Assembly: GCF_001856665.1 (NCBI RefSeq) | Contig: NZ_CP017782.1 | Span: 1-64,000, forward strand | From: Rhodobacter xanthinilyticus | GTDB taxonomy: Bacteria; Pseudomonadota; Alphaproteobacteria; Rhodobacterales; Rhodobacteraceae | Length of the DNA stretch: 64,000 bases | Direction: 5' to 3' | Part shown: positions 4,288 through 59,588 of the stretch, piece by piece | Position numbering within the stretch: position 1 is the stretch's first letter | How the letters are laid out: each line of letters opens with the position of its first letter | Translations under genes and position numbers: made by a program | The notes under the pieces: generated by a model | Told to the model about the DNA's origin: nothing | Seen by the model: the letters and a program-made list of their open reading frames with translations, nothing else | Database searches by the model: none

Positions 4288-5631
4288 TCAGTTGATCTTG
4301 CGCAAGATGCGGTAGGTGTTGCGCTCGGAAATCCCGAGCGTCTCGGCCAGTTTCTGGCGGTTGCCGCCAAACCGGTCGAGCAGCAGTTGCAGATAGGCGT
4401 CGCGCATTTCCTCAAGCGTGGGCGGCGCTGCGAAACGCAGCAAGATCCCGTTGCTGCCAGCGGCCTGTACGCCGGTCTGGCCAGCCAGCCCGACATCGGC
4501 GGGCAGGATCTCGGCGCGGCCGGCGGACATGATCAGCCCGCGTTCAATTGCGTTGCGCAATTCGCGAATATTCCCGGGCCAATCGTAGCTTTGCAGCGCG
4601 GTGCGGGTTTCGCGCGGCAGAACCTTGTCGACGCCGCGCTGGAACGAGCGGTTCTCCAGCAGGAACTCGGCCAATGTCGGGATGTCCTGCGCGCGCTCGC
4701 GCAGTGCGGGCACCGCCAGGCTGAGGGCCGAGAGGCGATAGAACAGCTCGGGGCGGAAGCGGCCCTCGCGCGCGGCGCCTTCAAGGTCGGCGGCGGTGGC
4801 CGCGATCAGCCGCACGGGGCAGGGCAGCGACATGACCGAGCCCTGCGGCCGGTAGCAGCCCTGCTCCATCACCCGCAATACCGGGGCTTGCAGGGTCAGC
4901 GGCAGCTTTTCGATTTCGTTCAGAAATACCGTCCCGGCCTCGGCGGCGGCAAAAAGGCCCTCGCGCCGGGGTGTGCCGCTACCCGGCAGGCTGCCGAAGA
5001 GATCGGCCGCGCTTAGTTCCGGGTCGCAGTCGATGGTCACGAAACGCGCGTTGGCGCGCGGGCTTTGCATGTGGATCGCCTCGGCCACGGCGGTCTTTCC
5101 GGTGCCCGCCTCGCCACGCAGCAGCACCGGCGCATCCGAGGCCGCGACCAGGCCGATCATGCGGCGTAACTCAACCATCACGGGGCTGTCGCCGGTTAGG
5201 GTCATCTGGTCGGCGCGTTGGGCCTTGGCCTGCCAGAACGCCAGATCACGCCGCAGCGCAGCTGTCTCGAACACCCGCCCAAGCGCCAGTTCAAGGCTGT
5301 CGGGTGAGACCGGCTTGACCATATATTCCACCGCCCCCGCTTTGACCGCGCGCACCGCCTGGTCGATCGAGCCGAAGGCCGTCAGGATCACCACAGGGCA
5401 GAACTCGCGCAGCTCCGGCAGGAAGGTCATGCCGTCGGTATCGGGCAGGCGCATGTCGAGGATCGCCAGCGCCGGGGCGAAATATCCCAGCATCTCCAGC
5501 GCTTCGGCTCGGGAGCGCGCGCCGCGTGCGTCATGTCCCAGTTCGGCCAACTGGTCGCAGAGCAGGCGGTTCAGGGTGCGGTCGTCCTCGACCACAAGGA
5601 TCGGGCGCGGGGCTACGGGGGGAGGTGTCAT
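4288..5631 (-). CDS. NtrC-family response regulator lacking the GAFTGA loop
   Basis: Order of domains: receiver (residues 8-120, phospho-acceptor Asp59 in LAILDMRLPD, Lys106), AAA+ domain (about 145-385) and a Fis-type helix-turn-helix at the end (LAETLGISERNTYRILRKI). Walker A is GEAGTGKT (173-180). After DLFG the sequence runs straight into SLPGSGTPRREGLF, so the GAFTGA loop that contacts sigma54 is missing. Walker B reads TVFLNEI, with Asn238 where the family has Asp. From family knowledge, NtrC-like proteins without GAFTGA, such as Rhodobacter capsulatus NtrC, work with the housekeeping sigma factor. The start overlaps the kinase stop by four bases. It probably controls the molybdoenzyme operon upstream. 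Confidence 0.88.
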   Translation of the reverse strand: MTPPPVAPRPILVVEDDRTLNRLLCDQLAELGHDARGARSRAEALEMLGYFAPALAILDMRLPDTDGMTFLPELREFCPVVILTAFGSIDQAVRAVKAGAVEYMVKPVSPDSLELALGRVFETAALRRDLAFWQAKAQRADQMTLTGDSPVMVELRRMIGLVAASDAPVLLRGEAGTGKTAVAEAIHMQSPRANARFVTIDCDPELSAADLFGSLPGSGTPRREGLFAAAEAGTVFLNEIEKLPLTLQAPVLRVMEQGCYRPQGSVMSLPCPVRLIAATAADLEGAAREGRFRPELFYRLSALSLAVPALRERAQDIPTLAEFLLENRSFQRGVDKVLPRETRTALQSYDWPGNIRELRNAIERGLIMSAGRAEILPADVGLAGQTGVQAAGSNGILLRFAAPPTLEEMRDAYLQLLLDRFGGNRQKLAETLGISERNTYRILRKIN

Positions 5632-7538
5632 GGCGACGTCTCCTGTGAGGTGATGGCATCCGCCTGCAGGGCGTCTGTTTCCGGGGCGTCGGGATCGGGG
5701 AAGCTGACGGTAAAGACCGAACCGCGCCCGAGGCTGCTTTCGACCTCGATCGTGGCGCCGTGGCGTTCGAGGATGCCGCGCACGATCGACAGGCCAAGCC
5801 CACGGCCCATGCTCGCATCGGCGCGGCGCGACCAGAAGGGCATGAAGATCCGCTCCAGATCCGCCGCCGCGATGCCGATGCCCAGATCGGTGACCGACAG
5901 GCGCACCTTGCCCGCCTCACGCCAGCCGCGCAACGTGACGGTGCCGCCCTTGGGCATGGCGTGGAAGGCATTCATGATCAGGTTGGTTAGCAGCATCCGC
6001 AGGTCGGCATCGGTGGCGATCAGCCGCAGGCCGGGTTCCAACTCGGTCACTATCGTGATGCCGCCCTGCTCGGCCTGATAGTTAAGCAGTTGCGAGACGC
6101 CCGAGACGACGCGGTCAAGCTCGATCAATTGGCGGCCTTCGCCGGGCGGCGCTGAAAGCATCAGCAGGTTGTCGGTGATCTCGATGCATTTGCCGACCTC
6201 AGAGCGGATCGTGTCGAAATAGGCGCGGGCGCGTTCCGGGCGGCCCTGGTCGAATTCGCGCGCCAGCGCCGCAAGGGCGAGTTCAACCGAGGAGAGCGGA
6301 TTGAAGATCTCATGCGCGACCCCGGCGGCCAAGAGGCCGATCTCGCTTAGCCGTTCTTCCTGCGAGATGCGGGCCTGCGTGTCGAGATCGCGGATCGCCT
6401 CGACGACGCAGGGCGGGCCGTCACCCGCCAGTTCGATCCGGGCTGAGCTGACCTCGACCGTGCGCGCGCCCCCGGCGCAGTGATGCCGGTCGCGGAAGGT
6501 CACCGCGGGGGCGCCTTTCTCGATCAGTTCGACCACCGGGCAGGTCACCAGCGTGTGCGGGCAAGGCGTGTCTCGGCCGTGGCTGGAGGCATAGCAGAAG
6601 CTGCCCGCGACGGTTTCCGGGTCATGCCCGGTCTGCCGGCAATAGGCGCGATTGGCGCGCAGGATGCGGAAGTCGGGGCCGATCACGCGCACGCCGTCGG
6701 GCAGCGCATCGAGCAGCGCCTGCAACTCGGCCTCTGAGTGGCGGATCGTGGCCAGCTGGCTTTCAATCTGCGCGGACATGCGGTTGAAGGCCTGCCCGAG
6801 ACCGGCGATCTCATCTTCGCCCCTAATATCGAGCTGGGTATCGAGCGACCCTTCGGCCAGCGCGCGATTGGCGGCGGTCAGACGGTCGAGCGGTGCGATC
6901 ACCATGCGCCGCAGCGCGATCCACATCGCGGCGCTGGCCAGCGTCACGACAGCAAGCCCCAGAACCCCCAGCCAGATCGCGCCGGAAAAAGCCTCGCGGC
7001 GGATCGCCCCGGCGCGGTAATCCACCACCAGCAGCCCGTTAACGGGATGTTCCGCCGCCTCGCCGTGGCACTGGCGGCACTCGCTGCGGTTCAGCACCGG
7101 GTTGATCGAGCGCATGGCGACCTCGCCGCCGCCTTCGTCAAGGTAACGCGCGCCGGGGGCGCGGCTTTCTAGCGCCTCTTGCAGCGCCGGGCTGTCCAGC
7201 ATCTGCCCGACGCGCGACGGGTCCGACGAGAAGCGCACCTCGAAATCGGGATTGACGATCATCACCCGCGCGATGTCGTCCTGCCGACCCAACCCGTCGA
7301 GGATCTGCAAAAGCCCTGGGATGTCGCGCTTGAGCATTGCGTTTTCCAGTGCGCCCTGAAGCAGCTCGTTGATCTGGCCGGCCGCGCGGGCGTGAACCGA
7401 GATCATCTGGTTGCGGTAAAGCGTGCTGAGCACGGCAAGGAATAGCGCCGAGACGACGATCAGCAAGCCACCGAGTGCGAGGATCAGCTTGCGCTGCACC
7501 GAGGCGCCCGCCCAATGCCGGAACCGGGCCATGATCAT
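5628..7538 (-). CDS. membrane sensor histidine kinase with periplasmic haem-c motif
   Basis: The ATG at 7538 was chosen because it overlaps the upstream stop as ATGA; an upstream start would overlap 58 bases. The protein (636 residues) has membrane segments at about 17-41 and 187-208 that enclose a periplasmic domain ending in CRQCH (154-158), a c-type haem-binding motif. HAMP, PAS and kinase domains follow, with phospho-acceptor His409 in AHEIFNPLSS and a GRGLGLSI ATP-binding box. The PAS domain has a Cys-rich stretch, SFCYASSHGRDTPCPH, plus CPV, resembling redox or metal-sensing PAS variants. Together with the response regulator it forms a two-component pair; haem ligation suggests sensing of redox state or a gas, but the signal is inferred. 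Confidence 0.88.
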   Translation of the reverse strand: MIMARFRHWAGASVQRKLILALGGLLIVVSALFLAVLSTLYRNQMISVHARAAGQINELLQGALENAMLKRDIPGLLQILDGLGRQDDIARVMIVNPDFEVRFSSDPSRVGQMLDSPALQEALESRAPGARYLDEGGGEVAMRSINPVLNRSECRQCHGEAAEHPVNGLLVVDYRAGAIRREAFSGAIWLGVLGLAVVTLASAAMWIALRRMVIAPLDRLTAANRALAEGSLDTQLDIRGEDEIAGLGQAFNRMSAQIESQLATIRHSEAELQALLDALPDGVRVIGPDFRILRANRAYCRQTGHDPETVAGSFCYASSHGRDTPCPHTLVTCPVVELIEKGAPAVTFRDRHHCAGGARTVEVSSARIELAGDGPPCVVEAIRDLDTQARISQEERLSEIGLLAAGVAHEIFNPLSSVELALAALAREFDQGRPERARAYFDTIRSEVGKCIEITDNLLMLSAPPGEGRQLIELDRVVSGVSQLLNYQAEQGGITIVTELEPGLRLIATDADLRMLLTNLIMNAFHAMPKGGTVTLRGWREAGKVRLSVTDLGIGIAAADLERIFMPFWSRRADASMGRGLGLSIVRGILERHGATIEVESSLGRGSVFTVSFPDPDAPETDALQADAITSQETSP

Positions 7539-8524
7539 GACAGCACCTGAAACAGCTTGCGGTGATGCCCGGTGCGGCGGCAGACCGGGCAAAGGCCTCC
7601 TTCAGCGTTCGCGGGGCGATGCGCGGCAGGCTCATGCACCGATACCCCGCAGCCGCGGCAGGCATAGGCTTGCAGCGGCACGTCGGGGGGGGCTGGGGCC
7701 ATCGCGGCTAGTTGCAAGGCATCCTCGTCGCAGACATCGGCACAAAGCCCGCAGCCGGTGCAGGCCGCAGGCTCGGTCCGGTAGCACGGATTTCCCTCGT
7801 CGTCCTTGATACGGATCAGAACGCCATGGGGGCAAATGCGCAAACATGCCTCGCAGCCCGTGCATCTATTGGCGTCAATGCGAGGAGTGGCGGCGAAAAC
7901 CTCGCTGTCACGGCAGGGTTCTGCCTGCAACCGTGCCAGTGCGTCTACCTGAGTCTCGGGAGTGGCAACGCGCTTGAAAATGTTGCGGCGCGCGGGGTTT
8001 TCGGGGGCTTCGCGCAGCAGGGTCGTGATTTCGGCATGGCTGGCGGGCGCCAGTCCAAGCCCCGCCAGCCCGCGGCCCTCGGCCAGCGCCGAGATCTGCG
8101 CTGTGCGCGCCGACAGATCATGCCCCTCGGGCGGCTTGTCAGGACAGGTCGCGCAATCGCCGCTGGCCAGCGCGATACGGTGCACACCCTCTGCCAGAAG
8201 CGTGGCAAGATCGTTCAGCGACAGCGCATGGGCGCAGGGGCGCGATGCATCACCCTGGGGGTGGCGCGGGCAAAGCGCCAATGCCACCCCGCCGCGCCGT
8301 GCTGCAACGGCAGAGGAGCCGGGCAACGAGAGCGCGCTTTCGGGGCAGGCCGCCGCACAGAGCCCGCAGCCCGAGCAGCGTTCCGGCTCGATCTGCAACC
8401 CGCCGCGGATCGGTTCAAGCGCACCGTGGGGGCAGGCCTCGATACAGGCCGCGCAGGAACTGGCGGACAGACGGGCGGCGGTGCAACTGCCCGCGGCCAG
8501 CCGGGGCAGGGCGCTGGTTACCAA
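7535..8524 (-). CDS. multi-cluster 4Fe-4S ferredoxin-like protein
   Basis: The 329-residue protein carries two pairs of 4Fe-4S motifs: CAACIEACP and CSGCGLCAAACP near the N-terminus, CTGCEACLRICP and CTGCGLCADVCD in the C-terminal half. It ends with a zinc-ribbon-like pair, CRGCG and CPVC. No signal peptide is visible, so it should act in the cytoplasm. The start is TTG at 8524, overlapping the chaperone stop by seven bases; an upstream start inside the chaperone gene cannot be excluded. Similar genes accompany DMSO-reductase family operons, where they may serve maturation or electron delivery; that role is inferred. Confidence 0.75.
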   Translation of the reverse strand: MVTSALPRLAAGSCTAARLSASSCAACIEACPHGALEPIRGGLQIEPERCSGCGLCAAACPESALSLPGSSAVAARRGGVALALCPRHPQGDASRPCAHALSLNDLATLLAEGVHRIALASGDCATCPDKPPEGHDLSARTAQISALAEGRGLAGLGLAPASHAEITTLLREAPENPARRNIFKRVATPETQVDALARLQAEPCRDSEVFAATPRIDANRCTGCEACLRICPHGVLIRIKDDEGNPCYRTEPAACTGCGLCADVCDEDALQLAAMAPAPPDVPLQAYACRGCGVSVHEPAAHRPANAEGGLCPVCRRTGHHRKLFQVLS

Positions 8525-9291
8525 CTCTCGGCCGCTCCGGGCACGAAGGGCGCGGCCTCGGCCTCGGGCTGGCTTGAGGCGGGGACCGATTTGCGCGGCT
8601 GACGCGCAAGGCCGGTCAGATCCTCAAGCTCGTCGCGCAGGGCCTCAAGGTAGGCTGCGCAGAGCAGCCCCGCAGCGGCATAGAGCGGCTCGGCCACGCG
8701 AAGGGCCATTCTGCGACCGAACTCGGGCACCCAGGGCAGCAGATGCGCGTCAAGGAAATGCGCCGCATCGGCCATGCTCGCCTCGGTGCCGAGGTTCAGC
8801 AGCAGGCCAAGGAATTGCAGCTCATGCACGATATGATCGTCGGCGCGCTTGCGCCAGTCAGGGACGGTTACGCCGTAATGCGCATACCAGTCGCGCACCT
8901 CGAACATCGGGCCCTGACGCTCCAGCTTTTCCTCGGTCAGCCAGACCGAGGCGTTGGGCGCCAGCCGGTAGCCATGCGTCAGGAATACATCGGCGTAATC
9001 GGCGGCCAAGGCATCCAGCGCGCGGGCGGGAACCTGCTCGGGCAGGCCCGACAGGGCAACCCGCAGGACCTGGGCGCCTGCGCGACCCTCGGGCGAAGGC
9101 AGCAGCGCCTCGAACATATCGGGCGCCTGAATGGCACGCAGTCCGCACATCAGATCGCTGTCCGCCTCGCGGTCAAAGAGGCGGATCAGCAGGCCAAGCG
9201 CCTCGGCGGCGGTATCAAGGGTGCCCCGTGCCGTATCAGGGGCGGCACGGGGCAGGGGCGGGGAGGGGAGACTGGTTTGAGGTTCACCCAT
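8518..9291 (-). CDS. TorD/DmsD-type molybdoenzyme chaperone
   Basis: A 257-residue, mostly helical protein without signal peptide. The segment YADVFLTHGYRLAPNASVWL followed by the helix HIVHELQFLGLLLNL matches the TorD family pattern (conserved YxxLF-like and P-x-ES-like region, then a DHI.. ELxF helix). Family members bind the twin-arginine leader of their partner and help cofactor insertion. Here the partner should be the DmsA-like subunit encoded at 9968-12532. Start overlaps the Fe-S subunit stop by eight bases, supporting translational coupling. Confidence 0.82.
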   Translation of the reverse strand: MGEPQTSLPSPPLPRAAPDTARGTLDTAAEALGLLIRLFDREADSDLMCGLRAIQAPDMFEALLPSPEGRAGAQVLRVALSGLPEQVPARALDALAADYADVFLTHGYRLAPNASVWLTEEKLERQGPMFEVRDWYAHYGVTVPDWRKRADDHIVHELQFLGLLLNLGTEASMADAAHFLDAHLLPWVPEFGRRMALRVAEPLYAAAGLLCAAYLEALRDELEDLTGLARQPRKSVPASSQPEAEAAPFVPGAAESW

Positions 9292-9952
9292 CGACCCGCC
9301 CTTTCGAATGCGGAACGAACACGATTGAGGGATTGGTTAGTTCCGGGTCGGCCATGGATTTGACCTGACGCACGACCTCATCGTTCGGCCCGCGCGCTTT
9401 CGTCTCGTAGCTGCCATCGCGCAGCTGGTCGATCGGCCCGATGTCGAGCACCCGCATCATGCAGGCCGAGACGCAATAGGGTTTGCGCCCTGCCTCCAGC
9501 TCGTCGATGCACATGTTGCACTTCTTGACGACGTTCTCTTCGGGGTCGAACTGCGGCGCGCCATAGGGGCACGAGGCCTCGCATTTGCGGCAGCCGATGC
9601 ACAGCGTGGTGTCGATGTCCACAACGCCATTGTCGGGGCGCTTGAAGATCGCGCCGGTCGGGCAGGTCGGGATGCAGGCCGGCTCCGCGCAATGGTTGCA
9701 CGACATGTTGATCTTGAAGGCGAAAACCTCGGGGAACGTGCCGCCCTCGATATATTGCACGCGGCGAAAGCGCGGCCCCGCCGAAAGCCCGTTCTTGTCC
9801 TTGCAGGCGATCTCGCAGGCACGACAGCCGATGCAATCCACGTTGTTGTGGATGAAGCCGAACTGCTGCTCGGGGACTACGGGGGTGTAGCCCTCGCGCT
9901 TGCGCTTGGCGGCATTGGCCTTGATGGCTTCCTTGTCGATCTTGTTGGCCAT
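9284..9952 (-). CDS. DmsB-like iron-sulfur electron-transfer subunit
   Basis: 222 residues with four 4Fe-4S binding motifs in the DmsB/NrfC arrangement: CIGCRACEIACK, CNHCAEPACIPTCP, CIGCRKCEASCP and CNMCIDEL ... CVSACM. No own leader is seen, so it is likely exported together with the twin-arginine catalytic subunit. A good ribosome site (AAAGGGGG) precedes the ATG. It should pass electrons between the molybdenum subunit and the periplasmic or membrane carrier; with no DmsC-type quinol anchor in the locus, the hexaheme cytochrome is the natural partner. Confidence 0.9.
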   Translation of the reverse strand: MANKIDKEAIKANAAKRKREGYTPVVPEQQFGFIHNNVDCIGCRACEIACKDKNGLSAGPRFRRVQYIEGGTFPEVFAFKINMSCNHCAEPACIPTCPTGAIFKRPDNGVVDIDTTLCIGCRKCEASCPYGAPQFDPEENVVKKCNMCIDELEAGRKPYCVSACMMRVLDIGPIDQLRDGSYETKARGPNDEVVRQVKSMADPELTNPSIVFVPHSKGRVDG

Positions 9953-9967
9953 GATGGTTTGCCCCCT

Positions 9968-12532
9968 TTACTGATCGCGCCGGAAGACATGGGAGCGCGC
10001 CGTGGCCAGCTGATCCCATCCGGGGCGGTGATGCAGGTCGGTCTTGCGGATGTTGCACAGCACCGTGTTGTAGGCGAAGGCCCCGGCGGGCGAGGGATCG
10101 TCCTTGGTCAGGAAATCCGGGTTGCCCGCGCGGTCCACGCCGTCCTTGTCGAGGTCCATCCAGGCGCCCTCATGCAGCACCAGAACGCCGGGCATACAGC
10201 GCTCGGTCACATAGACCGGGGTCACCACGCGGCCGCGATCGTTCCACAACTCGACGATGTCGCCATGCTTGATGCCCATGCGTTTGGCATCGGCGGCGTT
10301 CATCGTCGTTTCCTGACTGAAGGTCTCGCGCAGCCATGGGATGTTGTTGAAGATCGAATGCGTGCGCCAGCGCGGATGCGGGCTGATCAGGTGGAAGGGG
10401 TAGGTCGCGGTCAGCGGATGGTTGAGGCTTTCCCAGGGCTCGATCCATTTCGGGATCGCGGGGATTTCATAGCCGTATTGCGTGCGGCTCCAGTCGTCGA
10501 TCTGCGCCAGTTGCGAGGACAGGATCTCGATCTTGCCCGAGGGGGTCTGGAACGGCAGGCCCTGCTCGATCTGGGCGCGGAAGGCGACATGCGGCTGCGA
10601 CAGGATGAACTTGTAGACGCCGCGCTTCTTGAACTCTTCCCAGCTCCATTCGACATGCTGGTGCTCTTGCACCTTGTGCCACCAGTCGACCAGATAGGCT
10701 TCGTCGGTCGCATCGGGATTGTCGAAATAGTCGCGCGCGGCCTTCGGGTTGTAGGCCGGGCCAAAGCCAAGGCGCCAGGCAAGCTCGGTATAGACCTGGA
10801 AGTCGGTCTTGCTCTCGCCCAGAGGCTCGATGACCTTCGGGCGGTGGATGTAGTAATGCCCCTTGTACCAGGGCAGCGCGACATCGTGGCGCTCGAAATG
10901 GGTGGCGATGGGCAGCAGGTAGTCGGCCCAGATGCCGGTCGGCGTGATCGTGCTGTCCGAGCAAACCAGAAGGCTTTCGCCCTCGCCCTGTTCGTCGAGC
11001 TTGCGGATGGCCGCGATCTCTTTGTTGATGTTCGTCAACTGGTTGAACCAGTCCGAGCCCTGCCAGAAGATGCCGCGGATATTCGGAACCACCCCGTCGA
11101 ACTGGTCGCTGCGCGGCCACAGACCGGCCTCTTGCCGGGTGACATTGGGGTAGTTGAGCACGATATGCGCCCAACGGTCGGACTTGATCGAGGCATACCA
11201 GACGTTGGCATATTGGTCATAGGGATAGGCCACCGCCTCGGAGTGCCAGGCCTTGCCCACGCCTTCGGCGCAGCCGCCGAGGATGCCGATATTGCCGGTC
11301 ATCGCCTGAAGCGCCGCCGCCATGCGGTTATATTGCTCACCATAGGCATTGCGCCCCGGTGCCCAGCTGGCCTTGAGCGCGGCGGGCTTGGTGGTGGCAT
11401 ACATTTCGGCCAGCTTGCGGATGTCATCGGCCTTCACGCCGCAGATCTCGGCGGCCCATTCGGGCGTCTTCGGCACGCCGTCATTCGTGCCAAGGATGTA
11501 TTCCTTGAAGCTTTCATGCCCCCGCTGATAGGCCCAGTTCGGCGTCGTGCCCGGGTCCATGCCCTGCACGAAGCGGTCGATGAAGCCCTGATCGTGCCAG
11601 CCATTGTCCCAGATGTGATAGGCCATGCCTGCCATCATCGCGGCATCGGTATTGGGACGGATCGGGATCCACCAGGCGTCATAGGCGGCGGCCGAGTCGG
11701 TGTACTGCGGGTCGATCAGCACGAACTTGCAGCCACGCTGCTTGGCCATGCGCATGTAATAGAACGTGTTGCCGCCATGGAAGGTATAGGCCGGGTTCCA
11801 GCCCCACATGATGATCAGCTTGGAATGCGCATAGGCGTCATCCTCGTTGCCATCTTCGATCGTGCCGAAGGTCATCCGGCTAGAAAACGTCGTGCCCTGA
11901 TAAGAGGGCACCGACCAGCTCGAGGTGCGGCAGCCAAACATACCCAGAAACCGGCCCAACAGCCCCTCGATCTGGTCGGATTTATGCAGAACCCCGTAAG
12001 AGGCGCCCGCATAGGATTGGTCAAGCAGGGCCTGCGGCCCGTATTTGTCGCGCAGATAGACCATACGCTCGGCGATCTCGGTCAGCGCCTGATCCCAGCT
12101 CACGCGCTTGAACTTGCCCTCGCCGCGCTTGCCCACGCGCTTCATCGGATACAGCAGCCGCTCGGGCGAATAGAGCCGCGAGCGGTAGCTGCGCCCGCGC
12201 AGACAGGCCCGCAACTGCGGCTTTTCCTCGGTGTCGGTGCCATAGGCATCGCCCTGATAGGTGCCGTTATCGGTGGACAGACGCACGATCACGTCGCCCT
12301 TCTTATGCGCCACCAGCATGTGCCGCGAGCCGCAGTTATGCGCGCAGGAGGTCACGACGGTTTCAAGATCGTCGTCGCGCGGATAGGGCTCGTAGGCGAA
12401 GGCATTGGCCTTGCGCGCGCCCGCTGGCATCACCAGTGCCGTTGCGGCTGCGGCGCTGGCGGTTTGCAGGAACTGGCGCCGGGTGGGGGTGAACAGCCGT
12501 GCCCAGGCTGCGGGGTTGAACCGGGTGGTCAT
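9968..12532 (-). CDS. DmsA-like molybdopterin oxidoreductase, catalytic subunit
   Basis: The ATG at 12532 is preceded by AAGGAG; a GTG six codons upstream is less likely. A twin-arginine leader (TRRQFLQTASAAAATALV, cleavage near ANA) sends the folded protein to the periplasm. The Fe-S motif is Cys63-x3-Cys67-x3-His71 with Cys110 in RACLRGRSYR; E. coli DmsA has Cys (CGSRC) where His71 stands. Further DmsA-like signatures: KRVGKRGEGKFKRVSW, IDPQYTDSAAAYDAWWIPIR and WQGSDWFNQ, with a Ser-rich stretch (SSWSVPSYQGTTFSSRM) where DmsA has its molybdenum-ligand serine. Length (854) fits the family. Substrate is not determined: DMSO, another S-oxide, or oxidation of a reduced sulfur compound are all possible. 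Confidence 0.88.
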   Translation of the reverse strand: MTTRFNPAAWARLFTPTRRQFLQTASAAAATALVMPAGARKANAFAYEPYPRDDDLETVVTSCAHNCGSRHMLVAHKKGDVIVRLSTDNGTYQGDAYGTDTEEKPQLRACLRGRSYRSRLYSPERLLYPMKRVGKRGEGKFKRVSWDQALTEIAERMVYLRDKYGPQALLDQSYAGASYGVLHKSDQIEGLLGRFLGMFGCRTSSWSVPSYQGTTFSSRMTFGTIEDGNEDDAYAHSKLIIMWGWNPAYTFHGGNTFYYMRMAKQRGCKFVLIDPQYTDSAAAYDAWWIPIRPNTDAAMMAGMAYHIWDNGWHDQGFIDRFVQGMDPGTTPNWAYQRGHESFKEYILGTNDGVPKTPEWAAEICGVKADDIRKLAEMYATTKPAALKASWAPGRNAYGEQYNRMAAALQAMTGNIGILGGCAEGVGKAWHSEAVAYPYDQYANVWYASIKSDRWAHIVLNYPNVTRQEAGLWPRSDQFDGVVPNIRGIFWQGSDWFNQLTNINKEIAAIRKLDEQGEGESLLVCSDSTITPTGIWADYLLPIATHFERHDVALPWYKGHYYIHRPKVIEPLGESKTDFQVYTELAWRLGFGPAYNPKAARDYFDNPDATDEAYLVDWWHKVQEHQHVEWSWEEFKKRGVYKFILSQPHVAFRAQIEQGLPFQTPSGKIEILSSQLAQIDDWSRTQYGYEIPAIPKWIEPWESLNHPLTATYPFHLISPHPRWRTHSIFNNIPWLRETFSQETTMNAADAKRMGIKHGDIVELWNDRGRVVTPVYVTERCMPGVLVLHEGAWMDLDKDGVDRAGNPDFLTKDDPSPAGAFAYNTVLCNIRKTDLHHRPGWDQLATARSHVFRRDQ

Positions 12533-12546
12533 GGTTCTGCTCTCCT

Positions 12547-14019
12547 TCACTCGGCAGTTTCGGGCAGACGGTATTTTTCGTCCGAGGCGGTGGGGCGGTC
12601 AGCGGCCCAGGCGGGGGTCTCGGGGTCCATTCCGGGCCAGGGGTGCCGCGCATAGGGATACGAGATCCGATACCAGGCGCGCCCGCCGTGGCAGCCGTAG
12701 CAGGTGTCCGACGAGACCTCTTTCGCCAGCTCTTCGATATTGGCCGCGTTGAGGTAGGTCACGTTGTGACGGTTGGTGCGGAACAGCTCACCATGGCAGC
12801 TCAGGCAGCCATTCGCGGTTGCCGGATCGGTGGGGTCTTCCATATCGCCGCGCACCTCGTGCCACGGACCACCAAGGCCCATGATCTCGACGGGGTCCGG
12901 CATCGCGCCATGGCAGCGCAGGCAGGTGGTCTCGGGGTTGACCATCTTGCGGTTGGTGAACTCGGGGCTGGCCGAGGCGCTGAAGAAGGGGCGGCCCGGC
13001 ATCATGTCGGGGCTTTCCTCGCGCGGGTCATTGCCCTGGTGGCAGAAGTTGCACTGAAGGTTCATCACCTCCTGCGCGAAATCGCTTTGCAGGTGGCGCC
13101 AATGCAGGTCGGCCTGCGGGCCGCTGTAGGTATCCAGCGTTTGATACCAGGCGAGGCTCGTTTCGGCCTGCACCCCGGCGGGGCTTTCCGCGCGCGGCTT
13201 GGCATCGTTGATTTCCTGGTGACACACGAGGCATTCGGCATTCGAGGCCGTCTCGATGTTCTTCGGGAAATGGATCGGGTGATAGCGCGCCTCGTCGTAG
13301 CTAAGGCCTTCGACTTCGGCCTCAAGGGCGGCAACGCGTGCGGCGATCTCGGCTTCCTGCTCGGCGCTCGGCGCGGGCGGGTTGGTAAAGGGGATCTGCG
13401 CGATCTCGGGCGCCTCGGCTGCGGGCGCCTCGGTCGCGGCCGGTGCTTCGGAGGCCACCGCATCGGACTGCGCGAAGGGCAGATCGCCCGGCGCGATCGG
13501 TGCGTCGTTCTGACCGGCCAGCCAGGCAATCAGATTGTGCCGGTCGGCGGGTTTGGACAGGCCAGCGAAGGCCATCGTGGTGCCGGGGACCATATCCTTG
13601 GGCTTGGTCAGATATTGGTCGAGCCGCTCGGGGCTCCAGACCTCATTCGCCTGGGCCAGCATGGCCTCGGAATAGGAAAAGCCCGCAGCCGAGGCCACGG
13701 GACGCGCGACGATGTTCCACAGGTTCGGGCCGGTGCGAGCGGCGCCGCCCTGATCCGCTGTATGGCAGGCGGCGCATTTCTGGAAGACCTTGGCGCCAGC
13801 CTCGGGGTCGAGTGCGGCGACCTGAGCCTCGGCCGGTGCCGGGGCGGTCGCGGATGCGGTTTGGGACGGCGCGGCCTCTGCCGTCGCCTCCGGCGCGCTG
13901 GCCGGTTCATCAACTGAAATCGAGTAAAGCAAGGAGCCGACGGCATTCAAAGCCACCAGCGACGTGGAACCGAGCAATACGCCGAATGCCAGACCGAGAA
14001 TGGATTCGAATTTCGTCAT
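12547..14019 (-). CDS. membrane-anchored hexaheme cytochrome c (monohaem plus pentahaem fusion)
   Basis: 490 residues. An N-terminal membrane anchor (about 5-35) is followed by an Ala/Pro/Glu-rich linker, then a class I cytochrome c domain (CAACH at 82-86, axial Met in VPGTTMAFAGL near 149), a second Ala/Pro-rich linker, and a C-terminal domain with five more CxxCH motifs at 263, 323, 366, 405 and 440. The first domain resembles membrane cytochrome c552/CycM; the second resembles small multihaem electron carriers such as NapB or octahaem-type fragments. It ends 14 bases before the DmsA-like start. Most likely it replaces the usual quinol-oxidising anchor and links the molybdoenzyme to the respiratory chain. 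The domain fusion is unusual. Confidence 0.85.
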   Translation of the reverse strand: MTKFESILGLAFGVLLGSTSLVALNAVGSLLYSISVDEPASAPEATAEAAPSQTASATAPAPAEAQVAALDPEAGAKVFQKCAACHTADQGGAARTGPNLWNIVARPVASAAGFSYSEAMLAQANEVWSPERLDQYLTKPKDMVPGTTMAFAGLSKPADRHNLIAWLAGQNDAPIAPGDLPFAQSDAVASEAPAATEAPAAEAPEIAQIPFTNPPAPSAEQEAEIAARVAALEAEVEGLSYDEARYHPIHFPKNIETASNAECLVCHQEINDAKPRAESPAGVQAETSLAWYQTLDTYSGPQADLHWRHLQSDFAQEVMNLQCNFCHQGNDPREESPDMMPGRPFFSASASPEFTNRKMVNPETTCLRCHGAMPDPVEIMGLGGPWHEVRGDMEDPTDPATANGCLSCHGELFRTNRHNVTYLNAANIEELAKEVSSDTCYGCHGGRAWYRISYPYARHPWPGMDPETPAWAADRPTASDEKYRLPETAE

Positions 14020-14048
14020 CGCAGGCTATCCGTGCAAGAGGAGGTGCA

Positions 14049-14066
14049 GGAGGCGCGAACGCCTCC
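14049..14066 (-). promoter_or_regulatory. RNA hairpin with UUCG loop between the Met-rich and hexaheme genes
   Basis: On the minus strand a perfect 7-bp stem GGAGGCG/CGCCTCC closes a TTCG loop, giving a very stable RNA hairpin in the 67-base gap. No T tract follows. It may act as an mRNA stabiliser or processing site that lets the upstream Met-rich gene be expressed more strongly than the downstream genes. Confidence 0.45.
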
Positions 14067-14086
14067 CACGATTGGCAAGGCTCGGG

Positions 14087-14821
14087 TTACTTGGCCATGA
14101 ACGAGGTGCAGACCCAGCCGTCACCCATGCCGCTCATGCCGCTCATACCCGACATGCCACCCATGCCGGACATACCGCCCATGCCGGACATACCCGACAT
14201 GCCACCCATACCGGACATACCGGACATACCGCCCATGCCGGACATACCCGACATGCCGCCCATACCGGACATACCGCCCATGCCCGACATGCCACCCATG
14301 CCGGACATACCCGACATGCCACCCATGCCGGACATACCGCCCATGCCGCTCATACCCGACATGCCACCCATGCCGGACATACCGCCCATGCCGGACATAC
14401 CCGACATGCCACCCATACCGGACATACCGGACATACCGCCCATGCCGGACATACCGCCCATGCCCGACATGCCACCCATGCCGGACATACCGCCCATGCC
14501 GCTCATACCCGACATGCCACCCATGCCGGACATACCGCCCATGCCGCTCATGCCCGACATGCCGCCCATACCGGACATCCCCGACATGCCGCTCATGCCT
14601 TGCATTGCAGGTGCGTAGGTCCACTGCACGCAGACGCCTTCGCCGCCGGCCATGCCGCTCATGCCCGACATGCCACCCATCCCGGACATACCGCTCATGC
14701 CCGACATACCGCCCATGCCGGACATGCCGCTCATACCCGACATGCTGTCGGCCAGTGCCACGCCGCCGACGGCGCCGGCGCACAGCAGGATGGCCAGAGC
14801 TCCCTTAACCATAGCTTTCAT
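14087..14821 (-). CDS. secreted methionine-rich tandem-repeat protein
   Basis: The 244-residue product starts at an ATG with AAGGAG upstream and has a clear signal peptide (cleavage after VALA, before DSMSGM). The mature chain is almost entirely MSGMGG (six residues) and MSGMSGMGG (nine residues) units, about 66 Met in roughly 219 residues. Two short unique segments break the array: GEGVCVQWTYAPAMQG and the C-terminal GDGWVCTSFMAK; each has one Cys and aromatic residues, so a disulfide is possible. Nothing in my memory matches it closely. Met-rich periplasmic proteins often bind Cu(I) or Ag(I), and Met residues can also be reversibly oxidised. Its place at the head of the molybdoenzyme operon suggests a shared job. 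Confidence 0.8.
   Translation of the reverse strand: MKAMVKGALAILLCAGAVGGVALADSMSGMSGMSGMGGMSGMSGMSGMGGMSGMSGMAGGEGVCVQWTYAPAMQGMSGMSGMSGMGGMSGMSGMGGMSGMGGMSGMSGMGGMSGMGGMSGMGGMSGMGGMSGMSGMGGMSGMSGMGGMSGMGGMSGMSGMGGMSGMGGMSGMSGMGGMSGMGGMSGMGGMSGMSGMGGMSGMSGMGGMSGMSGMGGMSGMGGMSGMSGMSGMGDGWVCTSFMAK
14124..14748 (-). repeat. 18/27-bp coding tandem repeat array
   Basis: Tandem 18-bp and 27-bp units encoding MSGMGG and MSGMSGMGG, in two blocks (14124-14606 and 14652-14748) separated by a unique segment. Synonymous bases vary between units (cataccc, catgcca, cataccg), so the array is not perfectly homogenised and the protein pattern seems to be under selection. Confidence 0.85.
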
Positions 14822-14913
14822 TTCACTCTCCTTGGTGATGGCCGCTCACGGGGTCGCCCGTCAGGGCCTGTTGCCCGGGGAACCCCCCGGATGGGCAGCG
14901 CCGCGCGCCGCTC

Positions 14914-15270
14914 TCATTCGATGTCGTGCCAGTGCCGCAGGTCGTAAGGCCCGGTCATTCCGGGATGGATGAACGGGGTGAACCAGGCGCCCTGATCGTC
15001 GAGCCATGCTAGGATGGTCGGGGGAATGGGGGCCTCGATCCCGTGGGCCGCGTTTTCCTGCCAGTTTGCGTCCGGCGTGAATTGCACGATGACCGGTGCA
15101 CCCTCGGGCCGCGCGTTGGGGGCGATGCCGCCGATGAACCCGGTTGCGTCCTGCGAATGCGCTGCGGAAGCCAGGGCAATGCCGAGGCTAGATGCGAGGC
15201 TGGCGATCATCAGAGACCGGATAAGACGTTTGGGCTTGGTCGGTTTCGCATTGGCCGCAGGACAGATCAT
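14914..15270 (-). CDS. small secreted protein of unknown function heading the molybdoenzyme operon
   Basis: About 118 residues from the ATG at 15270 (a GTG at 15279 is possible). A basic N-region (KPTKPKRLIRS) and hydrophobic core (LMIASLASSLGIALASA) form a signal peptide. The mature part includes GIAPNARPEGAPVI and a histidine-containing end, GPYDLRHWHDIE. No domain was recognised. It is the first gene of the minus-strand block, 92 bases upstream of the Met-rich gene, and the palindromes at 15411-15486 lie in front of it, so it is likely co-regulated with the cytochrome and reductase genes. Confidence 0.65.
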   Translation of the reverse strand: MICPAANAKPTKPKRLIRSLMIASLASSLGIALASAAHSQDATGFIGGIAPNARPEGAPVIVQFTPDANWQENAAHGIEAPIPPTILAWLDDQGAWFTPFIHPGMTGPYDLRHWHDIE

Positions 15271-15355
15271 CGCACTCACTTTCGCTGGGGCCCGGCCTTT
15301 GTGTTCAGAGGCCCGGGTTGGCAGCGAAACCTTAGCAAAAGATCATGCGCTAAGA

Positions 15356-15361
15356 AGTATA
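15356..15361 (-). promoter_or_regulatory. possible -10 box for the molybdoenzyme operon
   Basis: On the minus strand TATACT matches a sigma70 -10 box in an AT-rich island; no good -35 box lies 16-18 bases upstream, as expected for an activator-dependent promoter. The nearest palindrome centre is about 60-70 bases upstream of the predicted start. Confidence 0.35.
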
Positions 15362-15410
15362 AATGCTTTAAATACAGTAACTTGGCTTGCTGCGTGGGTT
15401 GGTATATGGC

Positions 15411-15423
15411 TGCCAAATTGGCA
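15411..15423. promoter_or_regulatory. palindromic regulator site 1
   Basis: TGCCAAATTGGCA, a 13-bp dyad. It is the exact reverse complement of site 2 and lies about 145 bases upstream of the 15270 start codon. Likely binding site of the NtrC-like regulator encoded at 4288-5631; this is inferred from position and spacing. Confidence 0.55.
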
Positions 15424-15473
15424 CGCCGCGTCGCGGCATCGCGTGGCGTGGCCACGATAGCGCGGCGCGGTCC

Positions 15474-15486
15474 TGCCAATTTGGCA
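15474..15486. promoter_or_regulatory. palindromic regulator site 2
   Basis: TGCCAATTTGGCA, centred 63 bases (six helical turns) from site 1, so two bound dimers would sit on the same face of the helix. Nothing else was recognised between 15487 and 15669. Confidence 0.55.
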
Positions 15487-16159: not shown

Positions 16160-16198
16160 TGTACCGGGGCACGGTTATGAGACAGCGCGTTGCGCTGG

Positions 16199-17122
16199 TC
16201 ATGCCGCCATTTTGAACCCTTTGGCGGCGTCGGTTTCAAGGGCCTTCTGTTCGGCCCTGATCTGATCGGGCGTTTTGTAGCCGTGCCGTTCCCGCAGCCA
16301 TGATGCGTTGTATCGCGCGGCGAAGGCGGCCAAAGCATGCCTGAGCTCTTCGACGGTCACAAAATGGCGGACCCAGAGCAGTTGCTCCTTGAGGGTGCGT
16401 ATGGCCCGTTCGGCCACCCCATTGCCCTCGGGCTGGCGCACGAAAGCTGGTGAACTGGTGATCCCGAAGCATTTGATCTCGCTCTGGAAGTCTTCTGACA
16501 TGTAGTTCGATCCGTGGTCGTGCCGCAGGATCAGGCCGAGGGCCGTATCCGGCCCGATACAGCCGAAGTGCCGGGTGACGCCCTGACGGATCGGTTCCAG
16601 CGCCTCCCACCGGCTGGCACTTGAAGACGCATGGGTGCCGACGAACTCGCCCGAGCAATGATCCACCGCGATGAACACGTAGGCCCGTCCCTCCCCGATG
16701 GTGACCGTCTGGGTCATGTCCGTGCCCCAGACCTGATCGACCCGCTCAGTGACGATCGTCCCGTCATGGGGATGCGCATCCCGCTGGACGGGTCGCTGAG
16801 GTGCCAGAAGGTCGTTCTCCTTCATGACCCGCCGCACCCGACGGGGGGCGGTACAGACGCCCAGATGCCGAAGCCGCGCCCATATCTTCCGGTAGCCTTC
16901 CCCGGAAAACGGCGAGGCTTCGATGATGGCCTCGATATGCTCCAGAAGCGCGCTGTCGCTGCAGGCCCCCTCCGGACCACGACGACGTGGCGGCCGCGCC
17001 TCATTGGCGGCATTGCCCGTAACACGATGCCGGTACACCGTCGCCCGGGGGACCCCCCAGATGTTGCAGACACGCGTCGTCCCGTAGCGCCGGTGCGTGG
17101 AGATCGAGTGCGCCTGGCTCAT
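16199..17122 (-). CDS. IS3-like transposase OrfB (rve integrase core), copy A
   Basis: 307 residues with the DDE integrase core: Asp in VWGTDMTQTV, Asp in LRHDHGSNYMSEDF and Glu in GNGVAERAIRTLKE. An N-terminal helix-turn-helix region (CNIWGVPRATVYRHR) precedes it. Start overlaps OrfA by four bases. The family is IS3-like; the element differs from classic IS3 in its long target duplications (see copies B and D). Confidence 0.85.
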   Translation of the reverse strand: MSQAHSISTHRRYGTTRVCNIWGVPRATVYRHRVTGNAANEARPPRRRGPEGACSDSALLEHIEAIIEASPFSGEGYRKIWARLRHLGVCTAPRRVRRVMKENDLLAPQRPVQRDAHPHDGTIVTERVDQVWGTDMTQTVTIGEGRAYVFIAVDHCSGEFVGTHASSSASRWEALEPIRQGVTRHFGCIGPDTALGLILRHDHGSNYMSEDFQSEIKCFGITSSPAFVRQPEGNGVAERAIRTLKEQLLWVRHFVTVEELRHALAAFAARYNASWLRERHGYKTPDQIRAEQKALETDAAKGFKMAA

Positions 17123-17520
17123 GTCCTCGACCTCCGCCGGGCCAAAGGGCGGCCGCCCTCCAGCTTGTCGATCTTCGCGTACAGCAACTCGTTGGCCATG
17201 GTGATCTCGCCCACCTTGGCCTGCAGCCGCGCAATCTCGTCGTCACGCTCATCGCGCTCGCGTTCCTTCAGCGCACTCTCGGCCGCCATGAGCACCCGGT
17301 CGCGCCATTCGGACAGCCGGTGAACCGGAACGTTCAGGTCCCGCGACACCGCCTCCAAGCTCTCACCCCGCATGAGCCGCTGAACCGCCACGAGTTTGCG
17401 CTTCGCCGAAAGGCGCCTGGCAGGACCGGCCACGGCCCCGCCGTCGCCAGCGTGATGGGCGCGCGCCGACGGGGCCGTGGCCTCCGTCGCACCTGAGGTG
17501 TCGTCGATCTTCTTGTCCAT
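17119..17520 (-). CDS. IS3-like OrfA (helix-turn-helix plus leucine zipper), copy A
   Basis: 133 residues. A low-complexity N-terminus is followed by a HTH (AVQRLMRGESLEAVSRDLNV, then PVHRLSEWRD) and a coiled coil (DDEIARLQAKVGEITMANEL) typical of IS3-family OrfA proteins, which bind the element ends. Confidence 0.82.
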   Translation of the reverse strand: MDKKIDDTSGATEATAPSARAHHAGDGGAVAGPARRLSAKRKLVAVQRLMRGESLEAVSRDLNVPVHRLSEWRDRVLMAAESALKERERDERDDEIARLQAKVGEITMANELLYAKIDKLEGGRPLARRRSRT

Positions 17521-17604
17521 GCTCTACTCCCCTTTCCTGAGAGAAATAGCGCTCCGAACTGTCTCAAGAAACCGTGCACCAGCCCAATCCGAACACTGTT
17601 TATG

Positions 17605-17609
17605 TCAAA
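17605..17609 (+). repeat. target duplication TCAAA of the IS1380 element (left)
   Basis: TCAAA occurs at 17605-17609 and again at 19281-19285, directly abutting the IS1380 inverted repeats. Five-base duplications fit the IS1380 family. Confidence 0.8.
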
Positions 17610-19280
17610 CCCACATTTCCCAAGTAAGGCGCTGATTTCGCTGTCCTGACCATTATATTTCCTATATAAAACATGGTGTTGAAGGCTGCGAGGGGCGCGT
17701 TTCATGGATCACCCAGAGGGTGCGGGCTTGCAACGGGCAGATCGGGTGGATTTCGACCCTCGCGTGCGGCTGGAATTTCGCGGCACGCAGCTCAGTTCCG
17801 ACGGCGGCCTTCTGGTGATGCGCGAGCTTGATGACGCGCTCGGGTTGTCCGATTTGGCGTCAGCGGCGCTGCGCGATACTCGCTCTGGCAAGAACACGGT
17901 CCATCGGCTCGACGGCCTGTTCCGGCAATCAGTCTTTGGGCGGCTGGCCGGATACGAGGATGTCAACGACGCCAACCGTCTCGCCTGCGATCCGGTCATG
18001 CGCCAAGTTGTCGGCGGCAGAGCGGTCGATGCACAAGCGGCCTCGGCATCGCAGATGGGACGGTTCGAGACCGAGACGCTGGCTCTGGCCGGGAACCGTG
18101 CCGCGCTGGCCGACCTGAACGGGCAATGGATCGACCGGTTCCATGACCGTAACGGGCTGAAGTACATCGTTCTGGACATGGACAGCTCGGTCAGCCCGAC
18201 CCATGGCGACCAGGAAGGGTCCGCCTGGAATGGCCATTTCGACTGTAGCTGCTATCACCCCAACTTTCTGTTCAACCAGTTCGGGATGCTGGAACGCTGC
18301 GCCCTGCGCCATGGCAACGTCCACAGCGCCGATGGCTGGCGTGATGTTCTCGACCCCGTCATTGCGCGCTACGCGGAGCGCGACCTTGGTGGCAGGTTCT
18401 TCCGGGCCGATGCTGCCTACGCGATCCCGGCGATCTATGAGCGATTGGAAGAAGCGCGGTTCTTCTACGCCATCCGGCTGCCCGCAAACGCGGTCCTCAA
18501 GGACAAGATCGCGCATCGGCTAACGCGCCCTGTCGGGCGGCCGTCACTGACCAAGGTCAAGCGGTTCTTCGAGGAATTCGAGTATCAGGCGGCGTCCTGG
18601 GACAAGGAACGCCGGGTGATCGCCAAGATCGAATGGCATCCGGGCGAACTGTTCCCGCGTGTCGGCTTCATCGTCACCAACCTGCCGATGGAGCCGGACT
18701 GGGTGGTGCGGTTCTACAACCAGCGCGGCACCGCCGAGCAGCACATCAAAGAGGGCAAATACGCCTTTCGCTGGACGCGGCTGTCGTGCCGGAAGTTCCG
18801 CGACAATGAGGTGCGGCTGCAACTGCACGCCCTGGCGTACAACCTGGCCACCTTCTTGCACTGCATCGAGCTGCCCGAGGCCATGGCCGACTGGTCGTTG
18901 ACCAGCCTGCAACTGAAGCTGATCAAGATCGGGGCACGTGTGGTCCGTCACGCCCGCACCATCACCTTCCAGCTGGCCGAGGTCGCTGTCACCGGCACGA
19001 TGGTACGCGCCATCCTCGCCGCTATCCGCCGATTGCGAGCGCCACCGCTATGCGCATGATCGCGATCCACGCTCAAACTGAACGAAAGCGGCTGGACAGA
19101 TCTGTCCGCTGCGCTGAAAAACGCCGCCCCTGGGCAAGGAAACAGCGGCTTCGCGGTCTGATCCGTCCAGATCCAGCAGTCTGCGCGACCGCAGGTGCCG
19201 CTTGCGGCAGAAAATCCTTGTCTAGCGCTCGGATACAGGCGATCTTCACCTCAAACGACACGCCACTTGGGGAATGCAGG
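17610..19280 (+). mobile_element. IS1380-family element (1671 bp)
   Basis: Terminal inverted repeats CCCACATTTCCCAAGT (left) and CCTGCATTCCCCAAGT (right, reverse complement) flank one transposase gene. The 5-bp duplication TCAAA is intact, so the insertion is clean. It lies inside a nucleotide-sugar dehydrogenase gene. Confidence 0.88.
17704..19059 (+). CDS. IS1380-family transposase
   Basis: 451 residues with the IS1380 DDE core: YIVLDMDSSVSPTHGDQEG, FRADAAYAIPAIYERLEE and the C-terminal FYNQRGTAEQHIKEGKYAF region containing the catalytic Glu. Full length for the family and no internal stop, so probably functional. Confidence 0.9.
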   Translation: MDHPEGAGLQRADRVDFDPRVRLEFRGTQLSSDGGLLVMRELDDALGLSDLASAALRDTRSGKNTVHRLDGLFRQSVFGRLAGYEDVNDANRLACDPVMRQVVGGRAVDAQAASASQMGRFETETLALAGNRAALADLNGQWIDRFHDRNGLKYIVLDMDSSVSPTHGDQEGSAWNGHFDCSCYHPNFLFNQFGMLERCALRHGNVHSADGWRDVLDPVIARYAERDLGGRFFRADAAYAIPAIYERLEEARFFYAIRLPANAVLKDKIAHRLTRPVGRPSLTKVKRFFEEFEYQAASWDKERRVIAKIEWHPGELFPRVGFIVTNLPMEPDWVVRFYNQRGTAEQHIKEGKYAFRWTRLSCRKFRDNEVRLQLHALAYNLATFLHCIELPEAMADWSLTSLQLKLIKIGARVVRHARTITFQLAEVAVTGTMVRAILAAIRRLRAPPLCA

Positions 19281-57184: not shown

Positions 57185-57949
57185 TCAGGTGTTGTCGCCG
57201 GTCTTGCGCGCGCGACTTTGCGCGAGGCGATAGCTTTCGCCGTTCATCTCGAGGATGTTGACGTGGTGGGTCAACCGGTCGAGGAGCGCGCCGGTCAGCC
57301 GCTCGGTGCCGAAGGTCTCGGTCCATTCATCGAAGGGCAGATTGCTGGTGATCAGCGTGGCACCGCGCTCGTAGCGCTGGGAGATCATCTCAAAAAGCAG
57401 CTCGGCGCCGGTCTTTGACAGGGGCACGAACCCGAGCTCGTCGATGATCAGCAGCTTGACGGCAGCCATCTGCTTCTGGACGCGCAGCAGCCGACGTTCG
57501 TCTCGCGCCTCCATCAGCTCGTTGACCAGCGCGGCGGCGGTGGTGAAGCTGACAGACATGCCCTTCTGGCAGGCCGCCAACCCGAGGCCCAAGGCAATGT
57601 GGGTCTTGCCGGTTCCGCTGGGGCCAAGGGCGATCACGTTCTCACGCCGTTCGATCCATTCGCAGCGCGCCAGTTCCAGCACCTGCATCTTGTTCAGCTT
57701 CGGGATCGCCTTGAAGTCGAAGCTGTCGAGGCTTTTGGTGGCCGGGAACTTCGCAGCCTTGATGCGGCGCTCGACCATCCGCCGCTCGCGGTCAATGAGT
57801 TCCAGTTCAACGAGGCGCGACAGGAATTGGACATGGTCCAACCCTTCGGCGGCGCATTGGCGCGCAACCTTCTCGTGTTCCCGCAGGAAGGTGGGCAGCT
57901 TCAGCGTCTTCAGATGGTGGGCAAGCAGGATCTTCGGAGCCTCGCTCAT
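57185..57949 (-). CDS. istB: IstB ATPase, IS21 type 2, copy b
   Basis: Identical in protein sequence to copy a; intact. Confidence 0.92.
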   Translation of the reverse strand: MSEAPKILLAHHLKTLKLPTFLREHEKVARQCAAEGLDHVQFLSRLVELELIDRERRMVERRIKAAKFPATKSLDSFDFKAIPKLNKMQVLELARCEWIERRENVIALGPSGTGKTHIALGLGLAACQKGMSVSFTTAAALVNELMEARDERRLLRVQKQMAAVKLLIIDELGFVPLSKTGAELLFEMISQRYERGATLITSNLPFDEWTETFGTERLTGALLDRLTHHVNILEMNGESYRLAQSRARKTGDNT

Positions 57950-59433: not shown

Positions 59434-59588
59434 GGTATAAATCTCCCCACCCTCCCTGCTGCCGCAAGAAGGGAAAAGTGGCAGGATTTTACTCCGCCCG
59501 CAGCGAGACGATCCCGCCGCTACCGTGGCCTAATTTTGCACCGCCGTTTCCACGTAGCGCCGGTGCGTGGAGATCGAGTGCGCCTGGC

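Follow-up and report, generated by a model that had tools for sequence, protein, structure and literature searches.

The window analyzed here, the first 64,000 nucleotides of contig NZ_CP017782.1 of Rhodobacter xanthinilyticus, carries at positions 4288–15486 a set of nine minus-strand genes, all overlapping or sitting close together, that includes a molybdopterin enzyme resembling DmsA of the dimethyl sulfoxide (DMSO) reductases. The catalytic subunit of this enzyme forms a clade of its own, sister to DmsA and YnfE among the sequences sampled and not inside them, and it is accompanied by an exported methionine-rich repeat protein. We propose, giving the idea about an even chance, that the locus encodes a periplasmic methionine-sulfoxide (MetO) cycle in which the repeat protein soaks up oxidants and the enzyme re-reduces the repeat protein. 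The clade defines an uncharacterized branch of the DMSO reductase family, known by a cysteine-to-histidine change in the motif of the FS0 cluster together with a dedicated Met-repeat partner, and its carriers include symbionts and sulfur oxidizers. For annotators, this provides a clear signature in place of the label “DMSO reductase.” If the repeat partner is the substrate, the locus would represent a DMSO-reductase-type molybdenum enzyme with a dedicated protein substrate and would couple methionine oxidation directly to respiratory cytochromes.

The catalytic subunit and its clade

The gene for the DmsA-like catalytic subunit (9968–12550) was assigned from family scans, an alignment, and a tree. 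The best model is TIGR02166 (dmsA_ynfE), with a score of 611.5 bits that lies under the cut-off of 777.7. The model for type II enzymes (TIGR03479) gave 211.9 bits, short of its cut-off of 984.75, which speaks against membership in the type II group (dimethyl sulfide (DMS) dehydrogenase and the selenate, chlorate, and nitrate enzymes). In a tree of 54 of the 119 aligned rows (29 of them from the new clade), in which the program flagged several long branches, the clade stands on a single long stem with support of 100/100, and the canonical DmsA/YnfE group lies across a branch supported at 99/99. The new clade adjoins that group and a lone relative of 43% identity, with the TorA/DorA-like rows outside. 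The first-pass annotation had called for a comparison with DmsA, TorA, TtrA, ArrA, and DMS dehydrogenase and had left room for the enzyme to fall within a characterized clade; it falls within none of those sampled for the tree, namely DmsA, YnfE, YnfF, TorA, and unnamed relatives. The separation from DmsA/YnfE and TorA is a result of the tree, and for TtrA, ArrA, and DMS dehydrogenase the comparison consists of hidden Markov model scores.

The FS0 motif of the window enzyme reads C69-C73-H77-C116. Histidine occupies the third position in all 88 clade rows (a few species are included twice), and in the other 31 rows this position is a cysteine in 24 and a gap in 7. NarG has a histidine ligand in its FS0, at a different position. 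Ser216, which we take to be the molybdenum ligand, is found throughout the clade (88/88) and in all 119 aligned rows. The enzyme does not match the TorA/DorA group either: the SYGW motif of DorA is not intact and the FS0 motif is present, the FS0 cysteines being absent from the TorA/DorA-like rows of the alignment. Membership in the DmsABC group was ruled out because the missing anchor described below, the FS0 change, the sub-cut-off TIGR02166 score, and the tree position all speak against it. One lone catalytic subunit in another genome (L150 of G235, 6116–8362), 43% identical to the clade, retains the normal FS0 cysteine and sits on a long branch; it represents a possible intermediate lineage.

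Like DmsABC and YnfEFGH of Escherichia coli, which are type III DMSO/selenate reductases, the locus places the catalytic gene before that of the Fe-S subunit, includes a TorD-type chaperone, keeps the molybdenum-ligand serine, and has TIGR02166 as its best model. Unlike them, it forms a separate clade with histidine in place of the third FS0 cysteine, has no DmsC or NrfD in its own genome, and adds genes for a cytochrome, the Met-rich protein, and a small secreted protein (Sec). DmsA is exported by the Tat pathway; the Tat-like signal of the window subunit scored 19.6 bits with PF10518, under the cut-off of 22.7.

The distribution of the locus was surveyed in species genomes of GTDB, where 323 stretches encoding a relative were found and the best 80 (L013–L092) were used. 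Taxon labels follow the record titles, many of which are metagenome-assembled genomes, and the Desulfobulbus and Exiguobacterium records look misassigned. The catalytic subunits of these best 80 loci are 76–99% identical to that of the window, and the carriers comprise Rhodobacteraceae and other Alphaproteobacteria, Rhodocyclaceae and other Betaproteobacteria, and gammaproteobacterial sulfur oxidizers (Thiodiazotropha, Sedimenticola). When 398 Pseudomonadota genomes were sampled evenly and the best two candidates scored in each, five proved to carry the clade at no less than 76% identity; the next best candidate is at 43% (39% by BLASTP), and the others are at 37% or below. Five of 101 relatives carry it at an E value of 1e-100; of the 18 genomes of the own genus, the own genome counted, 2 do so. 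The locus is thus patchy and perhaps mobile. Among plasmid records, the 91 with a match at 1e-80 all fall below 60% identity, so none is a clade member.

The conservation of the gene set, which the first-pass annotation had proposed to search for, extends by record title across Alpha-, Beta-, and Gammaproteobacteria. The order cytochrome-DmsA-DmsB-TorD is kept in 77 of the 77 loci where all four genes were found, under loose tolerances because open reading frames (ORFs) were taken from stop to stop. Many of the 80 loci are cut by contig ends, which affects the gene counts: DmsB was found in 80, the cytochrome in 79, TorD in 78, the ferredoxin in 57, the kinase in 55, the regulator in 54, and Sec in 43. 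Of 52 kinase homologues aligned over at least 400 residues, 44 are encoded downstream in the same orientation, and the remaining 8 lie elsewhere or in the opposite orientation.

The methionine-rich partner

The repeat protein (14087–14821, with a signal peptide called by eye) is built of (M-S/G-G)n units with a WVCT motif and contains 68 Met, 93 Gly, and 43 Ser in 244 residues. Synonymous codons for Gly and Ser are mixed along the gene, which suggests selection on the protein. In many alphaproteobacterial versions, WVCTQW-like islands break up the repeat.

Because this composition makes detection by BLAST poor, the repeat pattern was searched directly, a nearby repeat gene being one with at least eight Met-x-Gly units within 4 kb. 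Such a gene lies near the cytochrome in 42 of the 48 loci that have at least 1 kb of upstream sequence, in 22 of the 31 that have less, and in 39 of the 43 that have a Sec gene. Across the 398 Pseudomonadota genomes, a stricter pattern finds the repeat in exactly the five that carry the enzyme clade, a coincidence of 1.2e-11 under independence of genomes, which does not fully hold; none of the 31 other genomes in this sample with a DmsA/TorA-like match at 1e-60 shows the pattern. In the 101 relatives, a looser pattern occurs in seven genomes, the five carriers with 5–34 matches each and two others with a single match. The earlier idea of a link between the Met-rich protein and the enzyme thus gains strong support, and the repeat gene, whose absence from all relatives had been envisaged, is common among them. 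A local oddity or low-complexity accident was ruled out by the 42 of 48 loci and by the mixed synonymous codons. So nearly constant a pairing would most readily follow if the enzyme has the repeat protein as its substrate or as a protected partner.

Similar repeats occur outside the locus. In one of the five carriers of the 398-genome sample (G040), a quinoprotein dehydrogenase of the pyrroloquinoline quinone type ends in an (MSGMGG)n tail (L149 on contig C18, 4664–6817), and in two betaproteobacterial carriers Met-x-Gly repeats are found in lipoprotein-like proteins (L167, 6532–6954; L166, 5801–6094).

Electron route and the proposed methionine cycle

The cytochrome gene (12547–14019) encodes a hydrophobic N terminus, called by eye, followed by a c550-like domain and a five-heme domain, which together account for six CxxCH motifs. 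The earlier label “hexaheme” fits the window and describes only one variant: among the 79 cytochrome ORFs, cut rows included, five CxxCH motifs occur in 54, six in 22, and four in 3. A search of the own genome for DmsC (PF04976) and NrfD (PF03916) gave no match. All of the 80 loci but one (the cut locus L048), 79 in number, have a gene for a multiheme cytochrome. The first-pass reading is supported in that the own genome has no DmsC/NrfD anchor; the cytochrome may take its place, as the gene occupies the position expected of the anchor. The window cytochrome is weakly similar to DmsE (TIGR03508, E value 8.6e-5), one cytochrome has a sub-cut-off match to PF03264, and the pentaheme cytochrome of L068 has no solved relative at an E value of 0.01. 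In Shewanella, an extracellular DMSO reductase, DmsEFAB, reportedly consists of a DmsAB-type enzyme served by the decaheme DmsE and not by DmsC. The present locus would share with that system a multiheme cytochrome in the stead of DmsC. It differs in that its cytochrome has five or six hemes instead of ten and resembles DmsE only weakly, and in that none of the nine genes is porin-like.

In the proposed cycle, the exported (Met-x-Gly)n protein would serve as a dense, renewable oxidant sponge whose 68 methionines could be converted to sulfoxides by reactive oxygen, nitrogen, or chlorine species. The DmsA-like/DmsB-like enzyme would then re-reduce the sulfoxides with electrons from the multiheme cytochrome in place of DmsC, and the heme-motif kinase and sigma-54 regulator may turn the locus on under redox stress. 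What is inferred in this scheme is that MetO is the substrate, that the enzyme works as a reductase, that the repeat protein scavenges oxidants, that the cytochrome provides the membrane anchoring, and what the stimulus is. MetO cycling is favored because of the pairing, the MetO reduction known for DmsA and DorA, and the precedent of MrpX and YedYZ. It is also supported by the nearest sampled characterized relatives, DmsA and YnfE, and by MetO reductases beside some loci: an MsrAB fusion with a hydrophobic N terminus adjoins the regulator in L035 (17240–18379) and L038 (9976–11181), where 40 loci have room for such a gene, and an MsrA-domain protein lies about 8.6 kb upstream in L052 (120–2003).

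Precedents for the two halves of such a cycle come from different enzymes. In one study, DmsA reduces Met-R-O, and DorA, the DMSO reductase of Rhodobacter, reduces protein-bound Met-S-O (PMC7402097). The new clade keeps the SY of the DorA motif SYGW, its counterpart being SYAG, with Tyr in 88 of 88 clade rows; unlike DorA, whose TorA/DorA-like group lies outside the branch of DmsA and the new clade and is without the FS0 cysteines, it has lost the Trp. For the exported partner, a study of (per)chlorate reducers describes mrpX with yedYZ as a periplasmic methionine-cycling mechanism and exported MsrA/B in some islands (PMC4623255). Like MrpX and YedYZ (MsrPQ) with SigF/NrsF, the locus groups an exported Met-rich protein with a molybdoenzyme and a regulator. 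Unlike that system, its enzyme is a PF00384/PF01568 protein and not a YedY-type MsrP with MsrQ, a statement about the locus with no genome-wide search for MsrP, and its regulator is of another type; the likeness to MrpX is one of description. YedY lies outside the DMSO reductase family. A search of the open-access literature, with most subscription journals outside its scope, found no paper on the gene set. The combination looks new, having an enzyme clade to itself and an altered cluster motif, and in kind resembles MrpX/MsrPQ and DmsAB.

Several observations weigh against a methionine cycle. No nearby repeat gene was found in 6 of the 48 loci with sufficient upstream sequence (L056, L071, L077, L079, L089, L090). 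Searching whole genomes with the looser pattern turns up a repeat away from the locus for L056, L079, and L089, with one match each in L056 and L089, the latter a short stretch inside a lipoprotein-like protein; it finds none in the whole genomes of L071, L077, and L090, and it also fails on L057, whose repeat is a variant. All 88 clade rows have Gly where SYGW has Trp. According to PMC7402097, BisC and TorZ/MtsZ do not reduce protein MetO, and DmsA had not yet been tried on proteins. Beyond the sub-cut-off PF03264 match mentioned above, no NapC-like quinol dehydrogenase was recognized in the locus, and no genome-wide search for one was made. Electron direction is the weak point, as a c550-type partner would suit oxidation. 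Partners of this type are high in potential. The c550 domain and a separate monoheme cytochrome c gene, of one family in seven gammaproteobacterial loci (domains scanned in L068 only), suggest high-potential partners that favor oxidation over MetO reduction.

These same features would suit a dehydrogenase, an explanation that we consider unlikely. Such an enzyme would oxidize reduced sulfur or another compound in the periplasm and pass electrons from DmsB to the pentaheme cytochrome, to c550, and on to oxidases or denitrification enzymes, and the Met-rich protein would protect or hold something. Besides the fused c550-like domain, the monoheme cytochrome, and the lack of a quinol-type DmsC/NrfD anchor in the own genome, this explanation draws on the many sulfur oxidizers among carriers and on a YeeE-type sulfur transport protein flanking L069 and L081. 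SoxB exceeds its cut-off in 33 of the 47 carriers examined (the genomes of chosen loci among the 80, plus the own genome) and in 36 of 96 non-carrier relatives, a contrast to be taken only as a hint, as is that for NosZ below, the two sets differing in taxonomy and sharing a few species. Among the relatives, 4 of 5 carriers have SoxB. The own genome has no SoxB over cut-off, which counts against the dehydrogenase and excludes a strict link to thiosulfate oxidation. Moreover, the nearest sampled kin are reductases, with 212 bits for TIGR03479 against 611 for dmsA_ynfE.

That kinship would equally suit a respiratory reductase for a small oxidant (an S-oxide, selenate, an oxyhalide, or the like), in which case the Met-rich protein would act as a shield from reactive by-products. 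Shewanella DmsAB with decaheme DmsE is said to operate without DmsC, and MrpX likewise accompanies (per)chlorate reduction (PMC4623255). This explanation is nonetheless rather improbable in our judgment: one would not expect a mere by-product shield to keep so strictly to a single enzyme clade, and no chlorite dismutase or other substrate-indicating gene was recognized among the 16 neighbor families read or scanned, which make up a part of the flanks.

The spacing of the methionines invites a different comparison, since Met residues three positions apart resemble known Cu(I)-binding Met motifs. An MxxM ladder could bind Cu(I) in copper or silver handling, with the enzyme keeping Met reduced or being a separate passenger. 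Of the 47 carriers, 36 have the copper enzyme NosZ (9 exceed the family cut-off, and 27 are of other types that fall short of it); among the 96 non-carrier relatives, 26 have it. It is present in 5 of 5 carriers among the relatives, 25 of 101 of which are over cut-off. An RND-type efflux protein, which may act on metals, flanks L030 and L091. The NosZ enrichment fits a denitrifying life style equally well, the samples differ in taxonomy as noted, and 11 of 47 carriers have no strong match, which also rejects a strict link to nitrous oxide reduction. No copper-specific gene was recognized among the neighbors scanned, a part only. We regard a copper role as very unlikely.

A speculative variant, to which we assign a similarly slight chance, makes the Met-rich protein a reversible periplasmic redox store, with the enzyme running Met and MetO in both directions against the cytochrome c pool. 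At two electrons for each of 68 Met, one protein would hold more than 100 electrons and might, on the same long-shot assumption, buffer respiration at the oxic-anoxic edge. The Met-repeat tails of the L149 quinoprotein and the L166 and L167 lipoprotein-like proteins would then be extra storage or docking sites.

Regulation, remaining genes, and surroundings

All nine genes named in the first-pass annotation were recovered in the order and at the places given there, and family scans back those labels that could be tested. The DmsB-like Fe-S subunit (9284–9952), with 16 Cys, scored 198.8 bits with the DmsB model (cut-off 214.1). It is followed by the TorD-like chaperone (8518–9291; PF02613), a polyferredoxin (7535–8524) with Fer4 pairs at each end, and the sensor histidine kinase (5628–7592), which has HAMP, PAS, and histidine kinase domains and is listed with a TTG start, the real start possibly lying further in. 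Its sensor region contains one heme motif, CRQCH, at residue 172, and of 52 kinase homologues aligned over at least 500 residues, 51 have a CxxCH within their first 330 residues, the exception being L014. The sigma-54-dependent response regulator (4288–5631) was identified from family scans.

Two TGCCAAWTTGGCA palindromes lie upstream of the first gene, and none occurred in 100 shuffles. On the minus strand, TGCCAATTTGGCA at 15474–15486, whose end coincides with that of the locus at 15486, is a probable upstream site for the response regulator, and TGCCAAATTGGCA at 15411–15423 is a second probable site. In L013, two palindromes have the same spacing as in the window. Within 300 bp upstream of Sec, 19 of 43 loci have TGACA-N3-TGTCA or TGCCA-N3-TGGCA; base shuffles give 0.03. 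Of the 41 stretches upstream of Sec that were scanned (of 43), 17 contain a relaxed −24/−12 sigma-54 consensus, against 2.4 expected from base shuffles; none was found in that of the window. As sequence patterns, the palindromes and −24/−12 matches are consistent with control by the sigma-54 regulator of the locus itself.

The Sec protein (14914–15279) gave no family match in Pfam or NCBIfam scans and has a conserved C-terminal motif, PF..PGM.GPYDIRGWH; 12 columns are invariant in an alignment of 33 of the 43 orthologues. The loci in which no orthologue was seen are mostly cut upstream, and in L033, L071, L075, L079, and L082 none was found despite more than 1 kb of upstream sequence. Its AlphaFold model has a mean pLDDT of 68 and a pTM of 0.38. 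A 987-residue plus-strand ORF over dmsA (9692–12655) and MPPMPDIP-type ORFs opposite the Met repeat were set aside as antisense frames of high-G+C genes.

Among neighboring genes, a lipoprotein-like protein with thioredoxin-like and NHL domains lies 3′ of the ferredoxin in 13 gammaproteobacterial loci (L068, 15098–16717, where the domains were scanned). In six loci, a protein of 150–200 residues is encoded between TorD and the kinase region, the copy in L037 (6080–6550) being without a Pfam match. The other neighbors scanned are mutually unrelated and include EAL proteins, ABC and RND transporters, GMC and aldehyde dehydrogenases, and HAD, PilZ, solute-binding, and sulfur-transport proteins.

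In the window, transposase-like genes at 16199–19059 adjoin the locus, and the stretch 16160–17586 is repeated both in the window and on the contig. Positions 1–28885 have a second copy on the own contig C2 (109269–138158), with 15 single-base indels, two of them in the Met-rich gene, as the only differences over 28.7 kb; this second copy is either a recent duplication or an assembly effect. The right edge of the duplicated region falls at a repeat found again near 57017–59553. At the start of the contig, a gene recognized by eye as glycerol kinase-like (338–1819) is broken across frames where the copies differ by indels, a split that is probably a sequencing error.

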